A DNA stretch of 53,894 nt from a virus, in the IMG/VR virus record IMGVR_UViG_3300020392_000021, positions 1 to 53,894 of that record, one strand, 5' to 3'. Every line of letters starts with the position of its first letter. The first letter of the stretch is position 1. The position numbers were made by a program, and so were the translations under genes. Shown in pieces: positions 871-53,893 of the stretch. The notes under the pieces are model-generated. The model had not been told where the DNA came from. It did not search any database and worked only from the letters and a program-made list of their open reading frames with translations.

Positions 871-1560
871 TTAATCTGACAGAAAATTATTTAATCCATC
901 TACTAGTAAATTCTTATCTGTTTTTTTAGATTCAGACATTTGTTGTTCTTCTTTAGATGGTGACTCATTATATATCCAAGATCCTGGTGTTGATGGTGAG
1001 GTAACTACATCCCAACAGATTAATTCAAAATCATCTTGAACAACATTTTTTCCGTTTTCTTTCTTTAATGAACCTACACCTCTAGAAGATACACCAATCT
1101 TTAAACCCTTTCTTAAAAGGTTTGCAACTTGATCACCTTCACATGAAATAATACCTTGTGTTACAAAACCTGGAGACATAATAATTTCTAATTTACCCAT
1201 CATCACATTTCCTTCCCACCACAATTCTGTAACGTTATGTGAAATTCTACTTATTGCAACAATAGAAGATTCTGGGTGATCAGCCTCCCCCATAGCTCTT
1301 TTTTCATTTATTAATTTCATATAATTTTCACCTTCTTTCTTAAGAATGTTTTCAGGATAAACTCTACCATTCCTATTTTCAACACCATATTTTTGTAATA
1401 CTGCATAAACAACCAAAGGTTCTTCAATAATTTGTTGACCTTTAGTTAGTTTATTTATTTCGTTAATAAAGTGTCTATTATCTTTAGGTGAAATATAACC
1501 AGCATCATACTCGACTAGTATACCTTTTTTATTTAGGTTATTGTTTTTTAAAATTTCCAT
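871..1560 (-). CDS. Prohead maturation protease, T4 gp21-like
   Basis: This 229-residue serine protease should process the prohead scaffold and every protein carrying an (L/I)-x-E site. The sequence shows the gp21 pattern in order: NGRVYPENIL (64-73), the GEADHP motif with likely catalytic His95, ISHNVTELWWEG (106-117), the IGVSSRGVGSL segment (155-165) with the candidate nucleophile Ser at 158/159, and WDVVTSPSTPG. It sits between portal and scaffold as in T4. The C-terminal tail is Ser/Lys-rich and may be removed on maturation. An ATATTTAT box precedes it by 20 nt. It is the likely processing enzyme for the leaders and polyproteins described elsewhere in the window. Confidence 0.9.
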   Translation of the reverse strand: MEILKNNNLNKKGILVEYDAGYISPKDNRHFINEINKLTKGQQIIEEPLVVYAVLQKYGVENRNGRVYPENILKKEGENYMKLINEKRAMGEADHPESSIVAISRISHNVTELWWEGNVMMGKLEIIMSPGFVTQGIISCEGDQVANLLRKGLKIGVSSRGVGSLKKENGKNVVQDDFELICWDVVTSPSTPGSWIYNESPSKEEQQMSESKKTDKNLLVDGLNNFLSD

Positions 1561-21738: not shown

Positions 21739-24207
21739 ATGAAGAAAGTACAACCAAAGGTTAAAAAAATCATAAATAAGTCTATAGAAGAGGCTAAATT
21801 GTATGGTGATGTGGAAATTAATATAGAACATATTATTATTGCCTTAATCAATGATTATGATAATGAAGCAATAAAATATTTAATTGAGTTGGGTGTAGAT
21901 ATTAATAAACTACACGGTAAGATTGAAAAAATAGTATATTCACCAACAGAAGACGACACTATTATAAATTTATCTTTATTACCTATGTCAAAATACACTA
22001 AAAAAATTATTGCAGATGCTGAAATAGAGTGTGATAAATTAAAAGAACTATATCTTAATACTGCACATATAATGTTATCGATACTAAAAGAAAAAAATAA
22101 TGTAAGTAAAATATTGGAAAAAATGGGAGCAAACTATAAAGATTATAAAAAAACTGTAAAGAAACATCTTATTGAGGATTCTTTTGATTCTATGGACGAA
22201 GAAGAAAACATGTTTAGTAATAGACCACCAAAAAAGAAAAATAAAAATTCTGGTACACCTATATTAGATAATTTTTCTGTAGATGTAACTAAAAAAGCGT
22301 CAGAAGGTAAAATTGATCCTGTAATTGGTAGGGATGATGTAATTCAGAGAGTTGCACAAATATTGTCTAGAAAGAAAAAAAATAATCCTGTTTTAATTGG
22401 TGATCCTGGAGTTGGTAAAACTACAGTTATTGAGGGGTTAGCATTAAAAATAAATGAGGGTGATGCACCAAGAACATTATTGGATAAAAGATTAATTTCT
22501 TTAGATTTAACTTCATTAGTTGCTGGTACTAAATATAGGGGACAATTCGAAGAAAGAATCAAAGGATTAGTAGATGAGTTAGTTGATGTTGACAATATTA
22601 TATTATTTATTGACGAGTTACATACTTTAGTAGGTGCTGGTAACGCATCTGGTTCTATGGATGCGGCTAATGTATTAAAACCAGCTTTATCTAGAGGAGA
22701 TATTCAGATAATAGGTGCAACTACGTTAGATGAGTTTAGAGAACACATAGAAAAAGATGGGGCACTAACTAGAAGATTTCAACAGGTAGTCATTGAACCC
22801 CCTTCAATAAGTGAAACAATAGAAATATTAGAAAAGATTAAATCTTCATATGAAAAATATCACAAAGTTAGTTATTTAGAAGATACCATAATTCAATGTG
22901 TTAAATTAGCAGATAGATATGTTACTGATAGAGAATTTCCTGATAAAGCTATTGATATTATGGATGAGGTTGGTGCTAGATCACAAGTTAATGCAAAACC
23001 ACCTAAAATAATTAGTGACTTAGAACAAGAAATTGTTTCTATTAAAGATGAAAAAAATAGAGTAGTTAGGAGTCAGAAATATGAAGAAGCTGCAAAATTA
23101 AGAGATAAAGAAAGACAAGTTATTGATAAATTAGAAAGTAGAAAAGAAGAATGGAAAAATAATTTAGATAAAAAAAGAACAATAATCAATCCAGAAGACG
23201 TTAGCGAAGTAGTGGCAACTATGACTGGTATACCACTAAAAAGACTTACCAACGATGAAGGTAAAAGATTATTAGGTATGGAGAAAGAGATGAAAGGTAG
23301 TGTTATAGGACAAGATGATGCAGTAGTTAAAATTGCTAAGTCATTAAGAAGAAATAGGGTAGGTATTAGAAACCCTAAAAAACCTATTGGTACATTTATG
23401 TTCTTAGGACCTACAGGTACAGGTAAAACACACTTAGCCAAAAAACTTGCACAATATATGTTCGGTGATGAAGATTCACTAATAAGGATTGATATGTCAG
23501 AATATCAAGAGAAACACGCACTTTCTAGAATGGTAGGTGCACCTCCAGGATATGTAGGACACGAAGAAGGTGGGCAACTTACAGAAAAAGTAAGAAGAAA
23601 ACCATATTCAATAATTCTATTTGATGAGATTGAGAAAGCACATAAAGATATCTACAATGTTTTATTACAATTGTTGGATGATGGACAATTAACAGATAGT
23701 TTAGGTAGAAAAGTTAACTTTAAAAACTGTATGGTTATTATGACATCAAATGTAGGAATTAAAAAATTACAAGAGTTCGGTAGCGGTGTTGGTTTCAGTA
23801 CAAAAAGTTTAGAGAAAAATAAAGATCAAGAGAAGTCTAATTTTCTTAATAAAGAATTAAAGAAACATTTCCCACCAGAATTTTTAAATAGATTAGATGA
23901 TGTGGTTATATTTAATTCACTTAAATCAAATGAAATTAAAAAAATAGTAGAATTAGAAGTAGTTGCAATAACTAAACGTATTAAAGAGTTAGGGTTTGGT
24001 TTAAAAATATTAAAATCTGCAAAAGACTTTTTAAGTGAGGTTGGGTATGATGAAGAATATGGTGCAAGACCACTTAATCGAGCAATACAAAAATATATTG
24101 AAGACCCAATATCAGAAGAAATATTAAAAGATAATATTAAAGAAGGACAAACTATTATGGTATCATATAGTAAGGTAAAAGAAAAGATAGACGTTAAGGT
24201 AATTTAA
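21739..24207 (+). CDS. ClpC-type AAA+ unfoldase
   Basis: The 822-residue protein has a Clp-N domain (about 1-145), AAA domain 1 with GDPGVGKT (221-228) and LFIDELHT (289-296), a short middle region with a UVR-like motif (KYEEAAKLRDKERQ, 447-460), and AAA domain 2 with GPTGTGKT (557-564), LFDEIEKAH and an arginine finger region near FLNRLDD. The short middle and UVR motif are ClpC-like, not ClpB-like. VGFS (684-687) sits where ClpC carries its ClpP-docking loop (VGFN), so the protein could redirect the host ClpP peptidase. No clpP is in the window. It is driven by an ATATTTAT box. Confidence 0.92.
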   Translation: MKKVQPKVKKIINKSIEEAKLYGDVEINIEHIIIALINDYDNEAIKYLIELGVDINKLHGKIEKIVYSPTEDDTIINLSLLPMSKYTKKIIADAEIECDKLKELYLNTAHIMLSILKEKNNVSKILEKMGANYKDYKKTVKKHLIEDSFDSMDEEENMFSNRPPKKKNKNSGTPILDNFSVDVTKKASEGKIDPVIGRDDVIQRVAQILSRKKKNNPVLIGDPGVGKTTVIEGLALKINEGDAPRTLLDKRLISLDLTSLVAGTKYRGQFEERIKGLVDELVDVDNIILFIDELHTLVGAGNASGSMDAANVLKPALSRGDIQIIGATTLDEFREHIEKDGALTRRFQQVVIEPPSISETIEILEKIKSSYEKYHKVSYLEDTIIQCVKLADRYVTDREFPDKAIDIMDEVGARSQVNAKPPKIISDLEQEIVSIKDEKNRVVRSQKYEEAAKLRDKERQVIDKLESRKEEWKNNLDKKRTIINPEDVSEVVATMTGIPLKRLTNDEGKRLLGMEKEMKGSVIGQDDAVVKIAKSLRRNRVGIRNPKKPIGTFMFLGPTGTGKTHLAKKLAQYMFGDEDSLIRIDMSEYQEKHALSRMVGAPPGYVGHEEGGQLTEKVRRKPYSIILFDEIEKAHKDIYNVLLQLLDDGQLTDSLGRKVNFKNCMVIMTSNVGIKKLQEFGSGVGFSTKSLEKNKDQEKSNFLNKELKKHFPPEFLNRLDDVVIFNSLKSNEIKKIVELEVVAITKRIKELGFGLKILKSAKDFLSEVGYDEEYGARPLNRAIQKYIEDPISEEILKDNIKEGQTIMVSYSKVKEKIDVKVI

Positions 24208-30156: not shown

Positions 30157-30414
30157 TTAAATTGAATTAATTAACAAATCTAATCTATTACTTTTTTTTT
30201 CTACTCTTGATAAAACATCTTTAAAAACCTTTTTATCATTTTCTTTGTCAGTAATTCTATATTTAATCTCATCGATTAAAGTTTTTTCATTTAACATATA
30301 TAATTCATCTAATATGTTATCATAGTTTATCCATTTTCTTTTTATTTCTGTTCTCGCACCTTTAATTTGTTCAAACACAAATACTTTATAGCTATGTTCT
30401 AATTCTTCACCCAT
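30157..30414 (-). CDS. Small helical hypothetical protein
   Basis: I prefer the ATG at 30414 (85 codons), MGEELEHSYKVFVFEQIKGA, because it shares its A with the stop of the upstream hydrolase gene (TAATG), a layout repeated elsewhere in the window; an ATG 27 nt upstream is in frame. The protein is charged and helical with no known domain. Coupling to the wall hydrolase suggests a partner or regulator, but this is not shown. Confidence 0.55.
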   Translation of the reverse strand: MGEELEHSYKVFVFEQIKGARTEIKRKWINYDNILDELYMLNEKTLIDEIKYRITDKENDKKVFKDVLSRVEKKSNRLDLLINSI

Positions 30415-31241
30415 TATCTTCCAGTAAAATTTTTGGACCATTTAGTTGTAGTATCCCTACCAAAGATATGATCTAAACCTTTAGGTGGGTGAGGTATCCA
30501 AGTTTTACTTTCTTGTCCCCATGGTGGTTCTATTTTATTTGGGTTATAATAATGTGTTGCACCTTTAGTGTTATCAGAAATATTACCACCACCTAAAAGT
30601 AGTTTTGCGTATTTAACCGCCAATTCCCAAGATTTTCTATTTTGATACCTATCATCATTAGGTCTATTCATCATAATATTCTTCATAGTCTCATTATCCC
30701 TACTAACTGGTTGGTGTTTGTTCCATCCTGAGAATTGTTTGGGTTCTAAAACGACATCTACCACACTACCTCTCCCTGCTTTACTTCTGTTTAATATTAC
30801 ATTTGCAATACCTTTTATGTCCGATTCTTTATCTTCTGATTCTTCCATAACAAAATTTATTGCTAATATTAATTCATTTAATGATAGGGTAGGTGGTTTT
30901 TTAAACCCTAATTTCCCTAAAGTTTTTGGTCCAATAGATACAGTACTTAAATCTTTAAATTTAACATCAAATAACTTACCTATCATTCTAGATGTTCTAT
31001 CACCGAAGTCTTTATCTGCACGAAAACCAATTTCTTCTGCAAATTTAGGAAATTTATCGTATAATTTTTGTTGTACTAGATTTAAAGGTCCTAAATCATT
31101 AGTTTGGTAGTCACCGTGATTCAAAGTATCGAAACCGTACCATATATCTTTGAGTGAAACGTAAGTTTTATCTACTTTATCACTAGTTTTTTCACTAATA
31201 ATTAGTTTTTTTAATTGTTTTTCTGTTAAATAAACCCTCAT
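30414..31241 (-). CDS. Leader-tagged cell wall hydrolase, SleB-like, with peptidoglycan-binding-like domain
   Basis: The leader MRVYLTEKQLKKLIISE ends at ISE|K (17). Residues about 45-115 (LNLVQQKLYDKFPKFAEEIG to SIGPKTLGKLGF) look like a peptidoglycan-binding domain. The C-terminal half has ELILAINFVMEESEDKESDI, GIANVILNRSKAGRGSVVDV, VLEPKQFSGWNKHQ and DNTKGATHYYNPNKIEPPWG, the SleB/hydrolase_2 pattern of lytic transglycosylase-like or amidase enzymes. A leader on a wall hydrolase implies packaging in the virion and use at entry rather than at lysis. The box at 31268-31275 precedes it. Confidence 0.78.
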   Translation of the reverse strand: MRVYLTEKQLKKLIISEKTSDKVDKTYVSLKDIWYGFDTLNHGDYQTNDLGPLNLVQQKLYDKFPKFAEEIGFRADKDFGDRTSRMIGKLFDVKFKDLSTVSIGPKTLGKLGFKKPPTLSLNELILAINFVMEESEDKESDIKGIANVILNRSKAGRGSVVDVVLEPKQFSGWNKHQPVSRDNETMKNIMMNRPNDDRYQNRKSWELAVKYAKLLLGGGNISDNTKGATHYYNPNKIEPPWGQESKTWIPHPPKGLDHIFGRDTTTKWSKNFTGR

Positions 31242-32395: not shown

Positions 32396-32800
32396 ATGAA
32401 ATTTATAGATATTTTAAATGAAATGGTTAAACACCCCTTCCCAAATAAAAAAAACGTTGTTATAAAAAATAGTGATGATAATGACGTTACTATTGAGTGT
32501 GAATATGCGCAAACAAGTAAACAAAAAATGACTGGTGCTTTAGGGATGGATTCTATGTGTGATTATTGTGGTATATTATTCGATGAAATATCACCCACAT
32601 ATTACCATATGCAAGGTGTAAAATTTCCATTAGATATGATTTTTTGTGATAGTAATGGTACTATTTTAGATATTGTTACTGCAGAACCTGATGGTGAGAA
32701 CGTATATCCACCAGATGGTTCAAAATATAATATAGAAGTTAATGGTGGTTTCTGTAATAAAAATAATATAAATAAAGGAGACGTTATTTACGTTTCATAA
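32396..32800 (+). CDS. DUF192-family protein with short leader
   Basis: The 134-residue protein begins MKFIDILNE|M, a minimal (L/I)-x-E leader. The rest matches DUF192: KMTGALGMDSMCDYCGILFD, YYHMQGVKFPLDMIFCDSNG, TILDIVTAEPDG and NIEVNGGFC with a final GDVIYVS. DUF192 is a small beta-barrel family of unknown function, often exported. Two Cys (CDYC) form a possible metal or disulphide pair. The 3' end overlaps the convergent zincin gene by 13 bases. Confidence 0.8.
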   Translation: MKFIDILNEMVKHPFPNKKNVVIKNSDDNDVTIECEYAQTSKQKMTGALGMDSMCDYCGILFDEISPTYYHMQGVKFPLDMIFCDSNGTILDIVTAEPDGENVYPPDGSKYNIEVNGGFCNKNNINKGDVIYVS

Positions 32801-33657
32801 ATTTCAGGATTCTCTCTACCATATTTACGAACAAGTTCTCCGGCTTTTGCATTTGCTTCATCTTCCCACGGTGAACCATCTTCACCTTCTTCTTTTCTAC
32901 CTGTTAATTCACCTCTCTCATTTTGTTTATGGTGAACTAATTCATGTGCAACAGAACGAATGATATCTGGTAAAGCTCTATCTTTACCTAATACTGTTAC
33001 TTCATTATTGTTAATATCGTAACTTGCCAATGTTTCTACATCGTCAGAATCATTTGTAATATCTACGGTAAAGTTATCATCTAATTCTAAATCACCACTT
33101 ACAAAATCAACAAAATCATCTATTTTATCTTCCGTTAACTCTAATCGTCCAATAACACCTCTACTGCTTTCACCTCTTTTGATTATTTTAATTTTATCAT
33201 GTGGTAATAAAACTTTTAAAGTTCTACCATTTTCCCAATTAATCCATAAATGTTCTTCAGGTATACCTGAAATAACTTGTGAGTCTATTCTAGTTACTAC
33301 ACCCTTTGTTCCTGGTAGTATCGGGTTTGGATCTTCTCCCTCCATTTCAATCATTTCAATGGTGTCCCCAACCATTGGATAATCATCGTTATACAAATAT
33401 CTAACAAATTTATCTAAAATAGGTTTAATTAAATCCTCATTTTCAAAATACTCTAAACTATAAACATCCTCAATATGTGGTATGGCAGCATTATTAATAA
33501 TATTCTTAATTGCCTTTATACAGTTATAATATTCAGGCCCCCAATCATAAATTAATATTTCTTCGTTAAATGTATTAACTAAATCATCAAATATTACATC
33601 ACTTAGTGATCTTTGTTGTGTTTCTTCTTTAAGTATTTTTCTGATGAGAGATTTCAT
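32788..33657 (-). CDS. Leader-tagged zinc metalloprotease-like protein
   Basis: The leader MKSLIRKILKE|E cuts at 11. The 289-residue protein has an SH3/KOW-like middle (GTKGVVTRID, then HLWINWENGRTLKVLLPHDK), an internal site LELTE|D (176), and a C-terminal zincin: SVAHELVHHKQ with the HExxH pair His238/Glu239/His242 and a likely third ligand Glu in EDEANAKAG (267). Cutting at 176 would free the protease domain. If packaged, it could attack a host protein on entry. It is the last of a run of four genes sharing the IRKILKEE leader. Confidence 0.78.
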   Translation of the reverse strand: MKSLIRKILKEETQQRSLSDVIFDDLVNTFNEEILIYDWGPEYYNCIKAIKNIINNAAIPHIEDVYSLEYFENEDLIKPILDKFVRYLYNDDYPMVGDTIEMIEMEGEDPNPILPGTKGVVTRIDSQVISGIPEEHLWINWENGRTLKVLLPHDKIKIIKRGESSRGVIGRLELTEDKIDDFVDFVSGDLELDDNFTVDITNDSDDVETLASYDINNNEVTVLGKDRALPDIIRSVAHELVHHKQNERGELTGRKEEGEDGSPWEDEANAKAGELVRKYGRENPEIYET

Positions 33658-33913: not shown

Positions 33914-34792
33914 TTACATAAAAGAACTATACTCATCGTATAATCTATTATATAAGTACTCATTAAATTCTTTTATATCTAGTGTTCCTGCACCACCATA
34001 TCTGAAATGTCTATACTCATCTATAGTTACTGGTTCACCGAATAAAACATCTCCTTCATCACCATTCCAAACATCTTCCCACTCCCTTTCAACTATGGCA
34101 CTAACGACTTCATTCCAGTCATATCCTTGTTCTAAACTATCGGATAGTATATCTAATGCTGCATCATGATTCATTATATCACAAACCGATATTCTACCTT
34201 TTAATGTGTGGGTATCCCAATCCCATTTACCCTCTATTTTATCGGTTACTTCATGTACCCCATCTAAAAAGTCTTCATGTAATGCATTTATATCGGCATT
34301 TTGTTGTGCGTCACTATATGCACAACCAATCGCACTTTCTAAATCACCGTTTTTAATAAATTCTCTTAAGGTTTCATCTTCCTCTTTTTGTGATTCATAT
34401 ATTTTTATTATGATTTTCATGTTCTCTTCATTAATATCATCTAATTGATATTCGTCATAATAACATTCGTAACCATCATACATATAATCATAATCATCTT
34501 CTAAAAACCTTTTTACCATATTTTGTATGTCATAATCGCCATCGTAAAACATATTTGAAATTTCGTCTGCCTCTAATACAAAATTAATATATTCATCACA
34601 TCCACCATCATAATCTTTAAGGTATTTCCACATAAGATTTATTTCTTCTTCAACATCTAGCTCCATATCTCTAAGGTACTCATCAATAAATTTTTCAATA
34701 CCAATCTTATCGATAATTTTAAATGCGCCCAATTCAAACTTGTTAAAGTTTGATGTCTCCTCCTTTAATATTTTTCTAATTAATTTTTTCAT
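33914..34792 (-). CDS. Leader-tagged acidic protein
   Basis: The ATG at 34792 shares its A with the upstream stop (TAATG) and gives the leader MKKLIRKILKE|E (11). The 292-residue body is very acidic and Tyr-rich (DGDYDIQNMVKRFLEDDYDY, GYECYYDEYQLDDINEENMK) and contains GYDWNEVVSAIVEREWEDVW. No catalytic motif is recognised. Such a negatively charged protein could mimic DNA, but this is speculation. Confidence 0.65.
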   Translation of the reverse strand: MKKLIRKILKEETSNFNKFELGAFKIIDKIGIEKFIDEYLRDMELDVEEEINLMWKYLKDYDGGCDEYINFVLEADEISNMFYDGDYDIQNMVKRFLEDDYDYMYDGYECYYDEYQLDDINEENMKIIIKIYESQKEEDETLREFIKNGDLESAIGCAYSDAQQNADINALHEDFLDGVHEVTDKIEGKWDWDTHTLKGRISVCDIMNHDAALDILSDSLEQGYDWNEVVSAIVEREWEDVWNGDEGDVLFGEPVTIDEYRHFRYGGAGTLDIKEFNEYLYNRLYDEYSSFM

Positions 34793-35271
34793 TACCAATC
34801 CATATCGTGTTCTTCAGGATAATCATTTATGGGATCATTATCCATATGTTTTTTTATTCTATCAAATAAATATTGATAAATAATACTATAAAATTCCATA
34901 TCACTTGATTCACCACCGAACATATCTATTATCGCTAACTCCACTGCACTAACAAATTGATCGTTATCTTCCGCATGTACTACATTATATATGTCGTGTG
35001 TACCTGTAGGGTAATGGAATGTACCACTACACCCATAACAATAATTTTTAGCGATAGGTTCTACATCATCAAAATAAACGGTATACGTTGTGGAATTATC
35101 GGATTTAACAATCATATCTATATTAATGATATTATCTAAATATTTTATTATTAATGGTAATATTTTTTTGTTAGTGAAGTATTCTTGCCATTGTGTAGAC
35201 ATAATTTTTTTATAGTCCTCAATCCTTTCACTATACTCTTCCCTTAAAATTTTTTTAATTAATTTTTTCAT
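34792..35271 (-). CDS. Leader-tagged hypothetical protein
   Basis: The leader is MKKLIKKILRE|E (11). The 159-residue protein has a CYGCSGTFHYPTGTHDIYNV segment with two Cys and two His that could bind a metal, and an acidic C-terminus (NDYPEEHDMDW). The start overlaps the stop of 35268 (ATGA) and the stop overlaps the next start, so three consecutive IRKILKEE-type genes are translationally coupled. Confidence 0.65.
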   Translation of the reverse strand: MKKLIKKILREEYSERIEDYKKIMSTQWQEYFTNKKILPLIIKYLDNIINIDMIVKSDNSTTYTVYFDDVEPIAKNYCYGCSGTFHYPTGTHDIYNVVHAEDNDQFVSAVELAIIDMFGGESSDMEFYSIIYQYLFDRIKKHMDNDPINDYPEEHDMDW

Positions 35272-35795
35272 CCTCTAATAATATCCCACAATTTATCTTT
35301 ATTGGTTTTAATTATTTCACCCTGATTCCATGGTCTCATTTGACTCATTTGTTTTTTAGTGGACATAGAATAACCATCTTCATTTTCAAACCATTGTCCA
35401 TCCTTATAAACAAATACAGGATACCAATCATAAGAAAATACCACATACGCACCATTTCTATATTCTGCGTGTGTATTATTACCTTTAAATGGTATTCTAT
35501 TAATAACTAAATCTCTAGATCTAATATTTGCAGTTCTCATCTTCCTATCCTTTATGTCTTTTCTTACTAAAGGATTATTAGATATAGTACTAACATTATC
35601 TTTAAATAATTGATACATCTCAAACGCCTCCATACCAACAATACCCATCACATCATTAAGGTATCTTAATACTTTTTGGTACGGTGTTCTCGAATCGAAT
35701 CCTTCACGCCTTAATATGTCTATCATATTCTTTTGATAATTGTCTTGTTGTGCAGTTACCTCCTCTTTTAATATTTTACGTATAATTTGTTTCAT
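35268..35795 (-). CDS. Leader-tagged hypothetical protein, first gene of the IRKILKEE operon
   Basis: The leader is MKQIIRKILKE|E (11), followed by VTAQQDNYQKNMIDILRREG. The 175-residue protein has a beta-rich C-terminal part (TRNGAYVVF-like strands: AEYRNGAYVVFSYDWYPVFV, YKDGQWFENEDGYSM). I do not recognise a family. It is preceded by an ATATTTAT box nine bases upstream and heads the operon 35795 to 33914. Confidence 0.65.
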   Translation of the reverse strand: MKQIIRKILKEEVTAQQDNYQKNMIDILRREGFDSRTPYQKVLRYLNDVMGIVGMEAFEMYQLFKDNVSTISNNPLVRKDIKDRKMRTANIRSRDLVINRIPFKGNNTHAEYRNGAYVVFSYDWYPVFVYKDGQWFENEDGYSMSTKKQMSQMRPWNQGEIIKTNKDKLWDIIRG

Positions 35796-36680: not shown

Positions 36681-36838
36681 ACAACACAACCACCGATTAT
36701 GATGATTCAGTAAAAAAAATGGAGTGTACTGACATTATAGAAGGTTATTTATTAGATAACTATCCACACATATATAATACAATAACTAGAAGAGAAATAA
36801 AACTTTGGGTTGAGAAATATTTAGAGACTAATAAGTAA
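36677..36838 (+). CDS. Small hypothetical protein (53 residues)
   Basis: The ATG overlaps the preceding stop (ATGA) and encodes MNNTTTDYDDSVKKMECTDI followed by IEGYLLDNYPHIYNTITRRE and IKLWVEKYLETNK. It is acidic then helical. The last 11 bases overlap the end of the convergent polyprotein gene. Function is unknown; coupling to the two upstream genes supports reality. Confidence 0.6.
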   Translation: MNNTTTDYDDSVKKMECTDIIEGYLLDNYPHIYNTITRREIKLWVEKYLETNK

Positions 36839-38630
36839 GTTTTTGTCCGTGATAATCTTCTAAGTAAGATATTAAATCTTCGTGATAAGGTTTAAAGTCT
36901 TCCTTAGTCCACCCATCAAAAAAACCTTCATCCTTTAATGTGGCTTCGTATGCTCTTTTACCTCTAAAAAATCTTGATTCACTACCAGCACCTAAATAAT
37001 CTATTTTACCATATCTAGACCATTTAAGTATATCTATATAGTCTTCTATCTTTCTTAGATCATAATCTCTTGTTAGATAACTACCCCAGTCTTCTTCTCT
37101 AATTATTAATGAGGGGGTATACTCTAAATCCCAATCACCGATTAAAACGCTATTCATAGAATTTAAACGATTACTTTTAAATATATGGTAAAGTGCTGCA
37201 TTATATACATCTTCAACCTCGCTATAATTTAATCCATATATATCACCATAAAAGTCTCTAAATCTATTGAATAACCAGTCCCCTCTTAACTTATTTAATA
37301 TCCCTTGTTTTTCTACCCTAACTGGTGCAACATTATCATCGTAAGTAGGTTCTACCATCTCATTAAAATTCCAAAACCTATCATCTTCACTTATAGAGTC
37401 AATCACTTTTTTTTTAACTTTATCTAAATAGTCTGTCTGTTTAGTAGATTCCGCCAATATCCATTCCTCATTCCAATCCTCCCAATCTTCATCTCTTTGG
37501 TAATTATTTATTTGTTCTATAATTTCATCACTTAATATTTCGGATATTATAGGTACGGTAGGATCATCATCTCCTGATAATAAACTTTGTTTCTTTAAAT
37601 ATTGTTTAACTAATTCAGGTATATTTCTTCTGACTACATCTATACTATCTTTTGTTAATCCTGTTTTATCGTTCCATCTATATAATAATTGTGGTAGATT
37701 ATTACCACCCTCAAAACCTAACCCATTAAAATCAAATAAAACTTTAAAGGATCTTAAAAGAGTCATTTTTAAAATGTCAGTAACTATTCTATTTATAAAT
37801 CCATTCTTATGATATATTTTACCTACATTCTGTCTAATCTGAGGTGCGGTTTGTTCAGTTAATGAAGAACGAAGATTAACCAACTTTCTTACATAACCTT
37901 TATCTTTTGCAATTTTATATGTATTTTGTGTTAATTTTTTCGCAATGGGTGCAACCATCGGATCATCAAAGTGTCTGTTGGTTATTCTTTTTGGTACACC
38001 TATACCCATTGTTTTAAATAGATAATATGCAACTAAGTTAGATAAAGTACTCAATACAAATTCATAATCAAATATTCCTACATTACTGTGATAAGGATCA
38101 TAATAAAAATCAACATTTCTACTAAGATCACTATCTCTAAACCCATAATCTATAGTATTAAAATTTATACTCTCTTTACTGTATCTAAAATTCTTTTCAA
38201 TATCCCTAACCACCTTATCAATTAATGACTCAATATTTTTATTTTCTCTCATAACAATAGGGGCATCTGGTGTATCATCTTCTTTAAGATATCTATTATA
38301 AAGTTTAGGTATAAAAAATCTAGCCAAAACATTTATTATATCTTTAAGGTTAAAATATCCATAATGATCCTCAAAAATAATAAAAAAGTCATTAAGTGTT
38401 TGGCTAACTATATCCCTAGTTAATTCCATTAATGGTTGGTAACTTTGACGAATTCTTTCTAAATCATCTTTAGATAAACTATAATGCACACTATTTTTCT
38501 CATCAAACCCAAACCAGACATTATAATCAGTATCCCCATCTTCTTCTGAAGGAGGACTTACATAAATATTATTCATCAGTTCATCTGCAACTTTCTCTAA
38601 GAATTTATATGAATTAGATTGTGTTTCCAT
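36828..38630 (-). CDS. Polyprotein of diverged FLDKV/YGL repeat units
   Basis: The 600-residue protein begins METQSNSYKFLEKVADELMN. Candidate protease junctions VMRE|N (129), SLTE|Q (259) and ILAE|S (394) split it into segments of about 129, 130, 135 and 206 residues. Each starts near a FLxKV-like helix (FLEKVADEL at 10, SLIDKVVRDI at 135, YLDKVKKKV at 401), and YGLNYSEVEDVYNAALYHIF in the last segment is the family's second motif. The units have no domain name I know. An ATATTTAT box lies six bases upstream. It has no separate N-terminal leader, so units may reach the capsid through the repeat itself. Confidence 0.72.
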   Translation of the reverse strand: METQSNSYKFLEKVADELMNNIYVSPPSEEDGDTDYNVWFGFDEKNSVHYSLSKDDLERIRQSYQPLMELTRDIVSQTLNDFFIIFEDHYGYFNLKDIINVLARFFIPKLYNRYLKEDDTPDAPIVMRENKNIESLIDKVVRDIEKNFRYSKESINFNTIDYGFRDSDLSRNVDFYYDPYHSNVGIFDYEFVLSTLSNLVAYYLFKTMGIGVPKRITNRHFDDPMVAPIAKKLTQNTYKIAKDKGYVRKLVNLRSSLTEQTAPQIRQNVGKIYHKNGFINRIVTDILKMTLLRSFKVLFDFNGLGFEGGNNLPQLLYRWNDKTGLTKDSIDVVRRNIPELVKQYLKKQSLLSGDDDPTVPIISEILSDEIIEQINNYQRDEDWEDWNEEWILAESTKQTDYLDKVKKKVIDSISEDDRFWNFNEMVEPTYDDNVAPVRVEKQGILNKLRGDWLFNRFRDFYGDIYGLNYSEVEDVYNAALYHIFKSNRLNSMNSVLIGDWDLEYTPSLIIREEDWGSYLTRDYDLRKIEDYIDILKWSRYGKIDYLGAGSESRFFRGKRAYEATLKDEGFFDGWTKEDFKPYHEDLISYLEDYHGQKLTY

Positions 38631-40502: not shown

Positions 40503-41033
40503 TTAGCTTCCCATTTTTCTCATATGTCTTTTAACTTTCCTCATACCTTTTCTGGTTTTGTCTTTAAGTAATTGGATTAGTTTTTGCATTTGTCTTAAAA
40601 ATCTTCCCGCTTTAGCTTTTGATTTAGGGTTTTTGATTTTTGAAATCAGTTTATCTAAAGGACCTTGACCATCAGAACCTACTTTTTGTTCGTGTAATCT
40701 TTGTTCGTTAAATAAACCAGTGAACCAATCACCTACTTCTTCTGCTGCATCAACAATTTCATTACCCATTGTCTCAAATCCTCTACCTACTTCTTGCCAA
40801 TTTTTCTTTGATGTTAAGAAGTCACCTAATTTTGCAAAGCTACTAGGAATTTCTGAAGTTTCGCTTGCGGCGTCTTTAATATCATTCCATATATATTTAG
40901 CACCTCTAGTAAACTCATCCCAAAATGAAGGTGGTGTATATGTATCTTCTTGTTCAGTTAATATTCTTTTTACAATTCTTTTAAGATCAGATTCAGTTAA
41001 TCTAATTACTTGTCCATTCTTTTTAATATTCAT
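40503..41033 (-). CDS. Leader-tagged protein with basic C-terminus
   Basis: The leader contains RLTESDLKRIVKRILTE|Q (27) and is nearly identical at DNA level to those at 52551 and 52896. The 176-residue body includes amphipathic helices (WDEFTRGAKYIWNDIKDAAS, GNEIVDAAEEVGDWFTGLFN) and a Lys/Arg-rich end (GRFLRQMQKLIQLLKDKTRK). Helix pattern and basic end fit membrane- or DNA-binding cargo. An ATATTTAT box is 35 nt upstream. Confidence 0.68.
   Translation of the reverse strand: MNIKKNGQVIRLTESDLKRIVKRILTEQEDTYTPPSFWDEFTRGAKYIWNDIKDAASETSEIPSSFAKLGDFLTSKKNWQEVGRGFETMGNEIVDAAEEVGDWFTGLFNEQRLHEQKVGSDGQGPLDKLISKIKNPKSKAKAGRFLRQMQKLIQLLKDKTRKGMRKVKRHMRKMGS
40969..41033 (-). repeat. 65-bp leader repeat, copy 1
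   Basis: A 65-base segment encoding the first 21-22 residues (KNGxVIRLTESDLKRIVK type); clearly related to the copies at 52810-52874 and 53347-53411 but more diverged. Confidence 0.85.
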
Positions 41034-44811: not shown

Positions 44812-46077
44812 ATGAGTAAAATTTTATTATTGTTATTATTATTATTACCTGTAATGATTTTAACACAAACACCGTGTGCTACAGATGAATATAATAAACC
44901 CTTTATTGAAGAAAATCCACAAAGGTACGATAAAATAGAAAAAGATATACAAAACTATTTAAGAAGTCCGCAAAAGAAATCAGAAAATAGTTATATAATT
45001 CCAGTTGTAGTTCATATAGTCTATAACGATTGGAGAGAAAATCTTCATGACTCTATAATCTATCAACAATTAAAGGTTTTAAATGATAGATTTAACCTTA
45101 GAAACGCTGATACAGTATTATTAACTGATACCCTACAGAATTGGAAAGGTAATTTTAAAATATCATTTGAGTTGGCACATATTGATCCTGAAGGATATCC
45201 AACTACAGGAATTACAAGAACTAAAACAAATGTTGGTGAATTTTCTTATTATAGTAATAATGTTAAAAAATCAAGTCAAGGAAAAGTGGGTTGGCCAAAC
45301 GACAGATATCTTAATATTTGGATATGCGACCTCTATGATGGATTGATGGGTTATGCACAATTTCCTGGCGGTGAAGACTGGTCGGATGGAGTTGTTGTAG
45401 ATTGGCAAAGTGTTGGGGATAGAGTCTATTCTTGGACTTATCCAATGTTCAATAAATGGGCAAAAGGACATGTCCTTGTTCATGAAATAGGACATTGGTT
45501 AAACCTTCATCATCCTTGGGGAGATTGGGGTCCATGTGGAGAAGACTATATTCCAGAGACAGGTTTACAAGATGGACCTATTTACCCAAGTGCTGAATGT
45601 CCAGATACCCTATTTAGTCAATGTGATACACCAGAAAGGGTGTTTGTAAAACATTATATGGACTATGTAGGTGCAGATTGTATGTGTACTTTTACAAAAA
45701 ATCAAGTTGTTAGAGGTATTGCATCTTTGGAAACCTATAGAATAGATCTATTAAATAATTATGTACCAAAGCCACAGTTAACTGGTTTTGAGAATACGGT
45801 AGTTAGACCATCATTTACTAAAGGTAGAGTTATTTTACAATTTCCAGACTATGAAGGAGAACTACAAATCATAATTTATGATATGTTAGGGAGAATAGTT
45901 TATAGAGAATATACTACATTTCCATTTATTGATATGAGATTAAAATTAACTAACGGTAGTTACTTAATAGATGTACTTAAAAAAAGTGAAAGAGTATTTC
46001 AAAGAAAGATTATAATTAATAGTGCGTCACCATACGGTGCTAGTTTAAAACCAATAATAAATAAAGATAAAATTTAA
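44812..46077 (+). CDS. Secreted M43-type (pappalysin-like) metalloprotease with T9SS-like sorting domain
   Basis: The 421-residue protein has a signal peptide (MSKILLLLLLLLPVMILTQT), the propeptide-like YIIPVVVHIVYND, and the zinc motif VHEIGHWLNLHHPW with His224, His228 and His234 and catalytic Glu225. HYMDY supplies the Met-turn. Cys residues are spaced as in secreted M43 enzymes. The last ~80 residues (GRVILQFPDYEGELQIIIYD, MLGRIVYREYTTFPFIDMRL, TNGSYLIDVLKKSERVFQRK) resemble a type A T9SS C-terminal domain of Bacteroidota. This looks host-derived and would exit via host machinery. No promoter of either class is obvious upstream. Confidence 0.88.
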   Translation: MSKILLLLLLLLPVMILTQTPCATDEYNKPFIEENPQRYDKIEKDIQNYLRSPQKKSENSYIIPVVVHIVYNDWRENLHDSIIYQQLKVLNDRFNLRNADTVLLTDTLQNWKGNFKISFELAHIDPEGYPTTGITRTKTNVGEFSYYSNNVKKSSQGKVGWPNDRYLNIWICDLYDGLMGYAQFPGGEDWSDGVVVDWQSVGDRVYSWTYPMFNKWAKGHVLVHEIGHWLNLHHPWGDWGPCGEDYIPETGLQDGPIYPSAECPDTLFSQCDTPERVFVKHYMDYVGADCMCTFTKNQVVRGIASLETYRIDLLNNYVPKPQLTGFENTVVRPSFTKGRVILQFPDYEGELQIIIYDMLGRIVYREYTTFPFIDMRLKLTNGSYLIDVLKKSERVFQRKIIINSASPYGASLKPIINKDKI

Positions 46078-46443: not shown

Positions 46444-47451
46444 TTAATATCCTCTTGTGAATGAGTCCCAGTACTCTTCAGTCTTCTCCCATATCTCACC
46501 CTGTAATGAACCCCAAATACGATTCCATTCACTACCACTGATTCCATACATATCTTCTATGTGATTCATTAAGTCAACATGCCAGTTAGTATTTGGTGAA
46601 CTAATATCATTAGTAAATGCATCGTCTGCAGAAACCGCAGATAAAAAATCATCGTCCCTAATACTAGCGGAATAATCTATCATAGGGAAATAAACAAGTC
46701 CTCTATCAAAGTCCCACACTATTTCTTTAAGAACTCTGTCAGTAACCTTTTCAACGTATGCTAAATCAATACCTTCATCTAATCTAGGTCTGGTTTTATA
46801 AGATAAATCGAAAAACCTCTTAAAGTATTTTTCAAAGATATCATTAAAATACCAATACATTACCTCTTCTATTTCATCAATTTCTGTAATACCAAACATG
46901 TCTAAATATCTGGTGAAAATCTTACCCATAGTAAACTCATCATCAAAATTATCAACCATCTTTTTACAATAGTGTGCACTCAATACAAATACATTTCCTG
47001 TTTGTCTATCGGCAATAAATGGTGTTATAACACTAGCACCAGTTTCATTAAAGGGTTTAGTCTCATCTATCATCGTATCTACAACTTTTTGTAGGAATTC
47101 TGTTTGTTTATCTATTTTAGATTCTCTTAGGTAATCAACATGTACTCTTAGATATGGTGATACATGTTCTTTTTTGGATAGTACCATATTAATAATATGT
47201 TCATCATACTTATCCCAAAATAATTCTTCTATTTCATTATAGGTTAATCCCCAATAATCTTTTAGATAATTTTCTAAACATTCTGGTATATAGTTAAAAT
47301 AAGGTGCTTCACTTCCCCAACGAATACCAACTTGTAAACTTTTACACTTACCATCATATAAGTCTATTTCTTTATAAGATGCATCTCTGAATTTAGTATT
47401 CTTAACTAAATCATTATAAACATATTCTAAATATTCTTTTTGTTTATCCAT
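46444..47451 (-). CDS. Polyprotein of three FLDKV/YGL repeat units
   Basis: The 335-residue protein splits at YLRE|S (110) and RLDE|G (226) into units of about 110, 116 and 109 residues. Each begins with a FLxKVxDxLxKET-type helix (YLEYVYNDLVKNTKF at 8; FLQKVVDTMIDETKP at 119; YVEKVTDRVLKEIVW at 232) and ends with the second motif (YLKDYWGLTYNEIEELFWDK; YLDMFGITEIDEIEEVMYWY; HIEDMYGISGSEWNRIWGSL). The even size and sites exactly between units are strong signs of a processed polyprotein. It overlaps the leader-tagged gene 47444 by eight bases. Confidence 0.78.
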   Translation of the reverse strand: MDKQKEYLEYVYNDLVKNTKFRDASYKEIDLYDGKCKSLQVGIRWGSEAPYFNYIPECLENYLKDYWGLTYNEIEELFWDKYDEHIINMVLSKKEHVSPYLRVHVDYLRESKIDKQTEFLQKVVDTMIDETKPFNETGASVITPFIADRQTGNVFVLSAHYCKKMVDNFDDEFTMGKIFTRYLDMFGITEIDEIEEVMYWYFNDIFEKYFKRFFDLSYKTRPRLDEGIDLAYVEKVTDRVLKEIVWDFDRGLVYFPMIDYSASIRDDDFLSAVSADDAFTNDISSPNTNWHVDLMNHIEDMYGISGSEWNRIWGSLQGEIWEKTEEYWDSFTRGY

Positions 47452-47797
47452 TATCGTTAGGTGTTATCTTAATGGACTTACCATCTATTTCTACTTTAAA
47501 GTCATTTGGAGAAAGGTTTTCGAAATAATCTTTTAAATATTTAATCTTACCGTCTTTTCCCTTCATTGTGGTGGGAACATCCACTTGTCTTACATAAGGT
47601 GGTTTAGGTGGTTTCTTTTCCACCCATTTAACAGTATTTTTATCCGTAGCGTATGCATCGAAATCATCTTTCGTTGTAAACTCCCAATACTTATCACCTT
47701 TACGTTTTCTATAATAGGTGTCACCACCTATGTCTCTTACTTGATATTCGTACTGAGAAACTTCTTCTAATAATATTTTTCTTATTATGTCCCTCAT
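47444..47797 (-). CDS. Leader-tagged small protein upstream of the repeat polyprotein
   Basis: The leader is MRDIIRKILLE|E (11). The 117-residue protein contains YQVRDIGGDTYYRKRKGDKY, WEFTTKDDFDAYATDKNTVK and a C-terminal beta hairpin (FKVEIDGKSIKITPNDNG). It is basic with no known family. Its stop overlaps the start of the polyprotein gene, so the two may be made in fixed ratio. Confidence 0.62.
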   Translation of the reverse strand: MRDIIRKILLEEVSQYEYQVRDIGGDTYYRKRKGDKYWEFTTKDDFDAYATDKNTVKWVEKKPPKPPYVRQVDVPTTMKGKDGKIKYLKDYFENLSPNDFKVEIDGKSIKITPNDNG

Positions 47798-48715: not shown

Positions 48716-51004
48716 TTATATTTTTTCAATATCTAAATATTTTGCCCCTCTACCTTTATTCTTTAAAGTTATTTCTTTTTCATGAGGATAAAGGATATTA
48801 TTATTTAATGTCTCCATTACATCTACTTCACTTTTAGGTACTTTAACAGTTATTAAATATGCATCTTCTCCTTGTCTGTGTCCGTATATACTACCTCTAT
48901 TATAATGGTTATTAATTAAGTCTGTTCTGTCTTGTGAATAATGACTACCTAATTCATCGTAATTTATTTGATTTCCATCATCTAAGTAAAGTACTCTATA
49001 TAGAAATAATTCTTCTGGTAAATCTTTTACCCACGTAATTAATTCTCCTAATTCTTCTGATGCAATTTCTGGTGGAGTACCCATATCCCCAAAAGATTGT
49101 AATAGTGATTTATGTTCATCACCAGTTAAATTTTGTTCCGTTATAATTGCATCATCAGGAATATCGGGCAAACCTGGATTCACAAGTTTTAATTTTTTTC
49201 TTCTTAATTTATCTTTATACATTTCCCATAAAAATGCACTTTCTCTGGCTTGTGCAATACTATTACCTGTAGGAAACATTATTTGGTTATCACCCACCCC
49301 ATATATATCATCTACGTATTTCTCAAAACTACTGTGCCTATAGTCATTTATAAATACATCGTATTCAAATTTTCCGAAAGGAGTAAATACAATAAAACCA
49401 CCATCCTGAAAAACTTCATCGGATTCTAGTTTAGTTTCTTTATCTAACCTATCTACTACATTTTTTAAATACCTAATTTCTTTACTATCAATTCTTCTAT
49501 AGAATGGTACGTTGATGTCCGTACTTAATATATCAATACCTTTAGCCTTTAATAAATTTATGTTTTGTTCTCTAGCCCTTTCATCCCAATCCTCATAATG
49601 TTGTTCTCTTAATGAACCATAATGTTTTTTATGTTTTTCATTATACACCAAAATATTTTTAGCATTTAAACTGTCCCATACAAGATCTGATACCATTTCT
49701 GTCTCTGCCTTTGTTAACCCATATGTATCTTTTGAGTGTTTTTCTAAACCAACCCAAAAACCTCTACCACCTGTAGACATATCACTCCACGAACCGAATC
49801 CCCTAACTTTAAAATTGTCGTTGGAAATTTCTATTTCTTTCATAATAGAGTCTGCAACTTTATATAGATATTTAAGATCCATTCCTTTAGGTTTTTCTGT
49901 AGATTCATTAAGTCCTTTTTGGTAATAGTAATTGGTTTTAATTTCATAGAAGTAATTATTCCATACATAATCAATTTCTTCATCGGTTAACCCATAAACA
50001 TCTCTACAATGCTTTATTGTGTGGGTTAAAAATCTATTGTACAAATAATCTAAATGATCAAACATTTTTATCGCATTCCATTTTTCATCTGGATTACCTG
50101 GTATACTTATCATATCTCCACTGTAAGAAGTATATATAATAGTCTCCTTAACAAGTTGTTCAATAACCCTATCTAAGAATCTTCCTTGTTTATCTATAGA
50201 TTCATTTAAACTACCACCAATTTCAAATACCTCATCACCTCTAAACCATTCTTCTGATTTACTGGTAGGTATTTTATCATCTTCATTCATTTCTAAATAA
50301 CTTTTATAAATATTATTATAAAGTGTAGTATAATAGTTAAAAATGACTTCTTGTATTTCTTCAGAATTTAGTCCATATATATTAGTTAGATGATCTTCTT
50401 CGTAGTCTTCTATGTATTCTTCTTTTCTTTTTTTTCTTTTAAGTGCACTGTTTTTTACCGAGTCCATAGAAAAAACTTCAATAGGTTCTCCTGTTCGTGT
50501 ATTAGTAAGTGCAAAAATTATTTCTACTCGTGTTACTTTTTTAATATCTGTAGCGAAATCTTTATTTTCCCATATTCTATACATTGATTCTTTAAGTAAT
50601 CTATCTACAACCTTGTCTAAAAAATCTTTTTGTGTGTCATTTGATTCGGTTAAGATATTTTCTTCTTCACCTTGTGTTTTAACAATTTGTTTAAGAATAA
50701 AATAATAAACATGATGTAATTCATTTAACTCATTTTCTGGTACTTCATACTTCTCTATATAGTTAACACTTTTACTTGGTGATTCTAACTCATAATCTCC
50801 ATCATAATTAAAATGAAGTACAGAACTCCTTGATGGATATTTGTGATTATGTACTAACTTAGATCGGTGCAATAAGTCTTTAAGGATTTCTCTATAATAT
50901 TTATAGTTAAGGTATTTACTCCAGTATTCTCCCAGCACATTATCCCTAACATCATCTAAGATGTCATCGAACCATGCATCATACATATGTTTACTATTAT
51001 CCAT
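48716..51004 (-). CDS. Repeat polyprotein ending in an ADP-ribosyltransferase-like domain
   Basis: The 762-residue protein has candidate prohead protease sites at ILTE|S (120), SLNE|S (268), GLNE|S (367), SLRE|Q (467) and IITE|Q (623). Segments 2-5 carry the unit motifs (FLDKVVDRLLKES 128-140; FLDRVIEQLVKET 276-288; YLYKVADSIMKEI 379-391; YLKNVVDRLDKET 512-524, and IYGLNSEEIQEV, VYGLTDEEIDYV, TYGLTKAETEMV). The last 138 residues look like an ART fold: LFLYRVLYLDD (Arg670), ELGSHYSQD (STS-like, 684-692), AYLITVKVPKSEVDVMET and YPHEKEITLKNKG with the ExE pair Glu742/Glu744. T4 Alt is a capsid-packaged ART, so this is a plausible functional counterpart. A leaderless-type box is seven bases upstream. 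Confidence 0.75.
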   Translation of the reverse strand: MDNSKHMYDAWFDDILDDVRDNVLGEYWSKYLNYKYYREILKDLLHRSKLVHNHKYPSRSSVLHFNYDGDYELESPSKSVNYIEKYEVPENELNELHHVYYFILKQIVKTQGEEENILTESNDTQKDFLDKVVDRLLKESMYRIWENKDFATDIKKVTRVEIIFALTNTRTGEPIEVFSMDSVKNSALKRKKRKEEYIEDYEEDHLTNIYGLNSEEIQEVIFNYYTTLYNNIYKSYLEMNEDDKIPTSKSEEWFRGDEVFEIGGSLNESIDKQGRFLDRVIEQLVKETIIYTSYSGDMISIPGNPDEKWNAIKMFDHLDYLYNRFLTHTIKHCRDVYGLTDEEIDYVWNNYFYEIKTNYYYQKGLNESTEKPKGMDLKYLYKVADSIMKEIEISNDNFKVRGFGSWSDMSTGGRGFWVGLEKHSKDTYGLTKAETEMVSDLVWDSLNAKNILVYNEKHKKHYGSLREQHYEDWDERAREQNINLLKAKGIDILSTDINVPFYRRIDSKEIRYLKNVVDRLDKETKLESDEVFQDGGFIVFTPFGKFEYDVFINDYRHSSFEKYVDDIYGVGDNQIMFPTGNSIAQARESAFLWEMYKDKLRRKKLKLVNPGLPDIPDDAIITEQNLTGDEHKSLLQSFGDMGTPPEIASEELGELITWVKDLPEELFLYRVLYLDDGNQINYDELGSHYSQDRTDLINNHYNRGSIYGHRQGEDAYLITVKVPKSEVDVMETLNNNILYPHEKEITLKNKGRGAKYLDIEKI

Positions 51005-51525: not shown

Positions 51526-52113
51526 TTATGGGTTATTTACAGGAGGATCTATTGTACTATGATAAATAACTCCAGTATTTGGATTACCTCCACCAATCGG
51601 CACGACTCCTCCACCAGAATTAGGTGGTGTTGTCGAATTAGGTATTTTAAGACTACTAATCTTTCTAATTAACATTTTTAGAATTGGGTGATTTTTTATT
51701 ACTACTATTGATAAACTAGCAACTAATACACCTAATATCCCTTTAAGTATTTTTTTAGAAGCTGCATTTCTAGTTTCAGATGTGGTATTTTCTAATTTCT
51801 CAATCTGTCGTTCTAATTTCTTAATATTTTTATTTTCCCTTTTTAAAATTTTTCCACTGACTCTATTAGATTTCAATTGTTCTAAGTATGCTTCTAGTTT
51901 TATTTTACTTAAGTTCTTTTCAATCTTTAAACGTTCTGCTTCTTCTACTGCTGCTCTAAGTTCTTCTTCTAACTTTTTACCTTGTTCCTTAGATAATTTT
52001 AACTGATTATCTAAAGGAGAAGATTCAATATTATCCAAAGTTTCTTGTTCGGTTAATATAGATAACCCCATTAATCTCCTCATTTTATTTGTTTCGTCTA
52101 ATCTAGTCTTCAT
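51526..52113 (-). CDS. Leader-tagged coiled-coil protein with a transmembrane helix
   Basis: The RM-type leader MKTRLDETNKMRRLMGLSIL has LDE|T (7) and LTE|Q (22). A long coiled coil follows (about 35-120; EEELRAAVEEAERLKIEKNL), then one transmembrane helix (KGILGVLVASLSIVVIKNHP, about 127-146) and a Pro/Gly/Asn-rich tail. If delivered with the DNA it could anchor in the host inner membrane. The upstream region shares a long similarity with that of the gene at 52896, including the box and the GC-rich element. Confidence 0.65.
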   Translation of the reverse strand: MKTRLDETNKMRRLMGLSILTEQETLDNIESSPLDNQLKLSKEQGKKLEEELRAAVEEAERLKIEKNLSKIKLEAYLEQLKSNRVSGKILKRENKNIKKLERQIEKLENTTSETRNAASKKILKGILGVLVASLSIVVIKNHPILKMLIRKISSLKIPNSTTPPNSGGGVVPIGGGNPNTGVIYHSTIDPPVNNP

Positions 52114-53587: not shown

Positions 53588-53893
53588 TCAATATCTTCCA
53601 TTTAACTTTAATAAAATTATATCAATATATTTTTTAAGAGTGTATGATACTTCTTCTTTAGATAAACCATATATGTTTTTAACATGTAATCGAAAATTAT
53701 GAGATAATTTACTTACAGGAAAAAATCTCCTAGTTTGTAATTCTATATTAATCTGATTAAATACATCCTCCGGAAATACCGAATCATAAAATGGTGTTCG
53801 TATGAATTTAAATCTTTTATGTTTAGATAACTCTGTTTCAGATGCTATCCGATCCGCCACCTTATCTAAATATTTTTTAACGTTATCTTCCAT
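53588..53893 (-). CDS. FLDKV/YGL repeat-unit protein, possibly partial
   Basis: The 101-residue frame runs from an ATG one base inside the window edge: MEDNVKKYLDKVADRIASET, ending HVKNIYGLSKEEVSYTLKKY and a short tail. It is exactly one unit of the repeat family and the start resembles METQS, MDNSK and MDKQK of the other family members, so it may be complete. It could equally be the last unit of a longer polyprotein whose start lies outside the window. Confidence 0.65.
   Translation of the reverse strand: MEDNVKKYLDKVADRIASETELSKHKRFKFIRTPFYDSVFPEDVFNQINIELQTRRFFPVSKLSHNFRLHVKNIYGLSKEEVSYTLKKYIDIILLKLNGRY

Follow-up and report, generated by a model that had tools for sequence, protein, structure and literature searches.

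In bacteriophage T4, the prohead protease gp21 cuts after the motif L/I-x-E; internal proteins carry a short N-terminal propeptide that takes them into the head and ends in a gp21 site, and in IPIII a Glu-to-Asp change inhibited processing while leaving targeting intact (PMC9026906). For phage SPN3US, a preference for Ser after the cut is described (PMC10052503). The removal of propeptides and core proteins by prohead proteases is established, as are chains cut more than once and proteins targeted to the inside of the head. Herein, we describe T600 of a marine T4-related phage, a 600-aa open reading frame (ORF) at 36828-38630 on the minus strand of the virus record IMGVR_UViG_3300020392_000021, all 53,894 bases of which (28.8% G+C) form the window analysed. 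We consider it likely, though well short of assured, that T600 is a precursor array of four capsid-internal proteins and a C-terminal extension, packed uncut into the prohead, freed by a gp21-type S77 protease, kept in the head and probably ejected. We computed a family of related units, an [LI]xE|S motif at unit joints (the bar marks the candidate cut), its match to the capsid site, the conservation of the T600 borders and the presence of a protease gene.

The reading frame of T600 was confirmed as real. The original prediction described a polyprotein of nearly equal segments. The sites VMRE|N (129), SLTE|Q (259) and ILAE|S (394) are indeed present and give segments of 129, 130 and 135 residues, but a fourth segment of 206 residues had been omitted and the whole protein is not evenly divided. 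Similarly, the FLxKV-type helix said to open each segment was found in segments 1 (KFLEKV), 2 (SLIDKV) and 4 (DYLDKV), whereas segment 3 has FINRI instead, about 17 residues past the border. T600 contains 12 [LIVM]xE sites and 15 [LIVMF]xE sites, so the three border sites were picked from many. With strict [LI]xE there is no such triple, site 129 having Met at P3. We determined how often an equally even triple, counted from the N-terminus with a tolerance of 6, arises by chance in 2000 trials each. With 12 sites, it arose in 131/2000 residue shuffles and 195/2000 random placements; with 15 sites (Phe allowed at P3), the counts were 260/2000 and 365/2000, respectively. The even spacing had been held unlikely to arise by chance, which did not stand: such triples appear in 7-18% of trials, and the spacing argument alone therefore weighs little.

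Conservation was more informative. Homologues were searched in viral contigs, 32 relative records and genome contigs. T600 homologues were found in three records, namely L002 (88%), L003 (81%) and G014 (L097/L091; 45% over the aligned protein), and the four homologues counted below are these and the window. The only genome-contig match was the Prochlorococcus single-cell assembly AG-409-L21 (L098), which carries the same contig as L003; perhaps the phage was co-sorted with the cell and Prochlorococcus is not its host. An [LIVM]xE site was retained at all three borders in all four homologues, down to 45% identity. The flanking letters varied around the constant motif (VMRE to VLRE, SLTE to GLNE, ILAE to VLGE). 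Border 1 reads VMRE|N, VMRE|N, VMRE|S and VLRE|H, border 2 reads SLTE|Q, SLTE|Q, SLTE|H and GLNE|S, and border 3 is ILAE|S in three homologues and VLGE|S in the fourth; in G014, the second and third borders both read LxE|S. The gp21-type L/I-x-E is present at 259 and 394, and site 129 is M-R-E in the window and L-R-E in the 45% homologue. Five of the 12 sites were kept in all four homologues (the three borders plus 372 and 415) and seven were lost, among them IIRE 512 of the C-terminal extension, which is lost in the 45% homologue. Non-border sites were thus kept in 2/9 cases. By our own arithmetic, the five kept sites would include all three borders by chance with a probability of about 0.045. 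Overall Glu retention between the window and G014 was 18/42. The comparison proposed with the original prediction, of border against other (L/I)-x-E sites in homologues, therefore favoured the borders, and none of the four homologues had lost border sites while retaining the units. The conservation supports reading T600 as an array resembling a polyprotein, with gp21-type sites where units meet and predicted cleavage there.

T600 segments were related to a family of units of about 95 residues. From the window and G014, 18 typed units were made into a profile, which had 75 matches (E <= 0.01) spread over 8/33 records. In 12 fetched stretches, units were placed where the independent E-value (iE) was < 1e-3 and the match started by profile position 10; later-starting matches were uncounted. 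This yielded 72 units, 45 internal and 27 at gene starts. They stand alone (e.g. in ORFs of 94 to 130 aa) or form arrays with two to six members, of which L131:7854-9701 in G028 is the longest regular one, with the joints SLNE|S, PIYE|S, SINE|S, PINE|S and PINE|S. A profile with T600 left out still found segment 1 (iE 2.7e-5 over the helix part; 21.2 bits) and segment 4 (iE 2e-6; 24.9 bits), and the best of 2000 shuffles reached 9.4 bits. Against the same profile, hhalign gave probabilities of 90, 7, 80 and 96% for segments 1-4, with segment 3 aligned at FINRIV...LKMT and GLTKDSIDVV. On these comparisons, segments 1 and 4 appear to belong to the unit family, segment 3 probably belongs to it, and segment 2 is weakly linked.

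The predicted model of one unit, built on 58 aligned units, was confident (mean predicted local distance difference test score, pLDDT, 87.4) and consisted of a helix, three strands and helices (alpha-beta3-alpha-alpha). The alignment used, A8, holds 58/62 listed units and leaves out L003:10004-10369, L138:12221-12610, L097:1850-2113 and L097:10004-10375. The low-confidence T600 model gave each of the four segments a helix, three strands and helices. For the unit fold, Foldseek found no match at E <= 0.001 in PDB or BFVD, the best VIA-align Z of 4.9 lay within the noise range that the tool describes, and the unit profile against PDB sequences returned weak unrelated rows only (best E 0.013). 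A structure search with the T600 model was uninformative, the model being too poor. T600 matched no Pfam family above cut-off, no PHROGs entry below E 0.1 and no NCBIfam entry at a meaningful score, and tblastn of INPHARED gave no match for T600, a 464-aa array or a 615-aa array. Judged by these searches, the unit family is new, with no known fold match and no known domain found.

The joints were then compared across the whole family. An [LIVM]xE site lies within -12..+2 of the unit start in 38/45 internal units (background 0.305). When 44 internal units were clustered at 50% identity, 21/27 clusters had the site at offset -6..+2 (background 0.198, binomial p 1.4e-10); the one unit left out, L091_17506, is probably a gene start read too long. 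Ser comes next after 32/38 joint sites compared with 22/243 other sites in the same proteins (p 9e-22). Taken with the T600 border conservation, these two statistics make it hardly credible that LxE triplets are simply common and their even spacing luck, despite the frequency of even triples in the chance trials. Furthermore, the Met of lone or gene-first units has a median offset of -1 (n=25), as does the residue after the joint LxE (n=38). Unit 1 of B335, a sister array in the window (Table 1), is gene-first there and internal in G003 (106/110 identical) and in G014 (54/109, after NLNE|S); the G003 joint ahead of it is TNE|S, an exception at P3. Such sites also precede a non-unit domain. The terminal domain of a second sister array, C762, follows IITE|Q in the window and ITE|S in G003, and a domain of this type stands alone in G014 (L092:13370-13819; 69/149 identical) with its own leader ending LNE. 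For this domain of about 140 aa, an ADP-ribosyltransferase was considered from a resemblance to the motif (R, S, ExE) of such enzymes; it is unsupported by Pfam, PHROGs, NCBIfam and PDB sequence searches and serves as a lead only. In L092:11167-12444 and L133:5119-6714, a unit is followed by an LSE|S or IWE|S site and then by a different C-terminal domain, which bears a possible resemblance to ParB.

The sister arrays also bear on history. The original prediction placed the duplication in T600 earlier than that in the 46444 protein, B335, which the identities do not bear out, being low within both proteins (T600 24-30%, B335 21-29%). Single units, gene-first units and units within arrays all exist, and this range of positions suggests shuffling more than a single duplication that could be dated. 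The same array was found in three relatives with 360 (L003:2357-3439), 762 (C762 of the window) and 1039 residues (L095:6174-9293); array units are gained and lost between relatives.

The predicted cutter is encoded in the window. By tblastn, the window protease matched annotated gp21 of Aeromonas phages, and Portal_T4 and terminase genes lie beside it. The capsid gene is outside the window; in the relative L061, Gp23 is two genes past the protease. All 14 distinct gp23-like capsid N-terminal regions carry a candidate site (LNE|S in 7, LNE|A in 5, LTE|A in 2), which we take from its place to be the maturation cut, as in T4 gp23. The unit-joint motif equals this expected maturation site of the gp23-like capsid protein. 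Two uncut or discarded fates for T600 can be weighed at this point. A tandem-repeat structural protein would work as one chain, its joint motif being left uncut in a flexible linker, as the conserved terminus of each repeat copy. The repeats are genuine, the linkers are predicted to be flexible, and a motif copied along with the repeat would look alike at every joint. However, the motif is the one expected for capsid maturation, precedes non-unit domains, ends the leaders of unrelated proteins and marks the position of Met in lone units; moreover, T600 segments share it despite little mutual similarity. We judge this explanation unlikely. The other is a prohead core or scaffold protein of the kind of T4 gp22, gp67 and gp68, which the protease would degrade at numerous LxE sites and which would not stay in the head. 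The 12 [LIVM]xE sites of T600 would suit such a role, and gp21 cuts T4 core proteins into several pieces (PMC9026906). Nevertheless, the border sites are preferentially kept, units with a confident globular model and lone genes point to stable products, and by position an ORF of 447-541 aa between the protease and capsid genes in relatives is the likelier scaffold. A scaffold role for T600 is therefore quite improbable.

Several observations weigh against T600 as a precursor of head proteins. The similarity of segment 2 to the unit family is not significant, the T600 segments barely resemble one another (Z -1.3 to 3.4), and the T600 model is of low quality (mean pLDDT 51.9). The borders fall in stretches of pLDDT <50 (116-133, 247-277 and 384-398), but 3/9 non-border sites do likewise, so the border position there is supportive only. 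Border 1 has Met rather than Leu or Ile at P3 in 3/4 homologues, and the non-border sites 372 and 415 are conserved as well as the borders. Seven of the 45 internal units have no site in -12..+2, although one of the seven has TNE|S instead. T600 of the window, L002 and L003 has neither a basic leader nor a T4-type N-terminal propeptide ending in L/I-x-E; only the G014 version starts MKSLTE. Most gene-first units, like T600, have no basic leader. Finally, the 198-kb record G010 has the S77 gene, its product sharing 91% identity with the window protease, but no unit at E <= 0.01. Further carriers were sought without success in Flavobacterium phage immuto (0 matches) and in 49 further short relative records (0 matches), and one match in Microcystis phage Mel-JY01 (E 0.00985) was judged unconvincing. 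The arrays are patchy among close relatives, which is compatible with accessory, host-directed proteins without proving it.

We infer cutting, packaging, ejection and a host-directed role of the units as follows. The T600 chain would enter the prohead uncut. At head maturation, the gp21-type S77 protease would cut after Glu 129, 259 and 394 and free the units, which would stay in the head and probably be ejected along with the DNA into the host. For chains without a leader, a candidate head-targeting signal is the first helix of each unit. The units are probable ejected head cargo. A route to the head by leaders is suggested by other genes. A basic N-terminal stretch ending in [LIVM]xE within 34 residues was found in 27/46 minus-strand ORFs, compared with 9.6% of internal windows, and in 1/10 plus-strand ORFs. 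With such leaders in 27/46 ORFs, much as T4 internal proteins have propeptides, the head of this phage probably holds many proteins; the leader-bearing ORFs probably encode a large set of capsid-targeted proteins, and the arrays would be a second means of producing such proteins. The coordinates are collected in Table 1.

Table 1. Positions of T600 segments, sister arrays, the protease and leader-bearing ORFs in the window
Feature	Position	Strand	Remarks
Unit 1 (residues 1-129)	38244..38630	-	Met start, no basic leader; unit hidden Markov model (HMM) iE 5.4e-12 (T600 units in seed)
Border site 1, M-R-E codons (VMRE|N, P1 = 129)	38244..38252	-	
Segment 2, putative unit (residues 130-259)	37854..38243	-	Weak: hhalign probability 7%, in register
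Border site 2, L-T-E codons (SLTE|Q, P1 = 259)	37854..37862	-	
Segment 3, probable unit (residues 260-394)	37449..37853	-	hhalign probability 80%
Border site 3, L-A-E codons (ILAE|S, P1 = 394)	37449..37457	-	
Unit 4 (about residues 395-490)	37161..37448	-	Unit HMM iE 3.8e-14 (T600 units in seed)
C-terminal extension (about residues 491-600), not recognised as unit	36831..37160	-	hhalign 1%; pLDDT <50 from 487 on
B335, 335 aa, three units	46444..47451	-	Joints YLRE|S, RLDE|G; unit HMM iE 2.6e-20, 1.3e-18, 2.1e-16
C762, 762 aa, four recognised units and C-terminal domain	48716..51004	-	Unit HMM; joints NILTE|S, SLNE|S, GLNE|S, SLRE|Q, IITE|Q
Lone unit, 101 aa, at end of window	53588..53893	-	Unit HMM iE 1.3e-17
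Prohead protease, gp21 family (Peptidase S77), predicted cutter	871..1560	-	PF03420 E 2.4e-24, 86.4 bits, cut-off 27
ORFs with basic LxE leader (examples)	32788-33657, 33914-34792, 34792-35271, 35268-35795, 40503-41033, 47444-47797, 51526-52113	-	

Other genes of the window were noted. A cell wall hydrolase (30414-31241; PF07486, E 2.3e-10) has a basic leader ending IISE and is possibly a head-packaged lysin. On the plus strand, 21739-24207 encodes a ClpB/ClpA-like AAA+ ATPase of 822 aa, and 44812-46077 encodes an M43 metallopeptidase (E 2e-11) with a sub-threshold match to a Por secretion tail, which hints at a Bacteroidota host.

A broader idea, for which we see the balance as even, is that phages of a T4-like lineage link as many as six small paralogous head proteins into interchangeable arrays, some of them ending in a domain of another kind, and that the prohead protease frees these proteins in the head. 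A single chain would then supply many ejected proteins in equal dose, and gaining an LxE|S joint would let any ORF join. If true, splitting a paralogous cargo array with the prohead protease would give a DNA phage a true polyprotein strategy and would offer new proteins a simple route into the virion at equal dose. The LxE|S joints would provide a sequence rule predicting mature virion proteins in uncultured phages, and the unit family is a new protein family for testing.

Arrays of paralogous units with prohead-protease joints were not found described in the literature searched, whose coverage was partial and does not speak for absence from print. The closest systems share parts of the arrangement. 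The T4 proteins IPI, IPII, IPIII and Alt likewise involve an S77 prohead protease, L/I-x-E specificity and small proteins for packaging in the head (PMC9026906), and the window and its relatives share with T4 the T4-like portal and the gp23-like capsid protein. In T4, however, each internal protein has its own gene and a single N-terminal propeptide, to which Alt adds one at the C-terminus, whereas T600 would hold paralogous units in one chain, with internal sites and no basic leader. The ejection or inner-body proteins of SPN3US and phiKZ are head proteins in which gp21-like proteases recognise a short motif and cut after its Glu; 13/14 mapped cuts there remove N-terminal propeptides, and paralogous arrays are not described in the available text (PMC10052503). 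T4 gp22, gp67 and gp68 receive several gp21 cuts per chain but are not described, in the part of PMC9026906 at hand, as repeated folded units with lone-gene relatives. Finally, the polyvalent proteins of Iyer et al. 2017 carry many domains per host-delivered chain, and an analogy with eukaryotic virus polyproteins is drawn there (PMC5512222). Their domains are biochemically different and released by embedded peptidase domains. Pfam and PHROGs recognised none of the effector or peptidase domains that are the hallmark of polyvalent proteins in T600. T600-type arrays, with no known domain found, instead consist of one fold family with predicted joints for a separate prohead protease.
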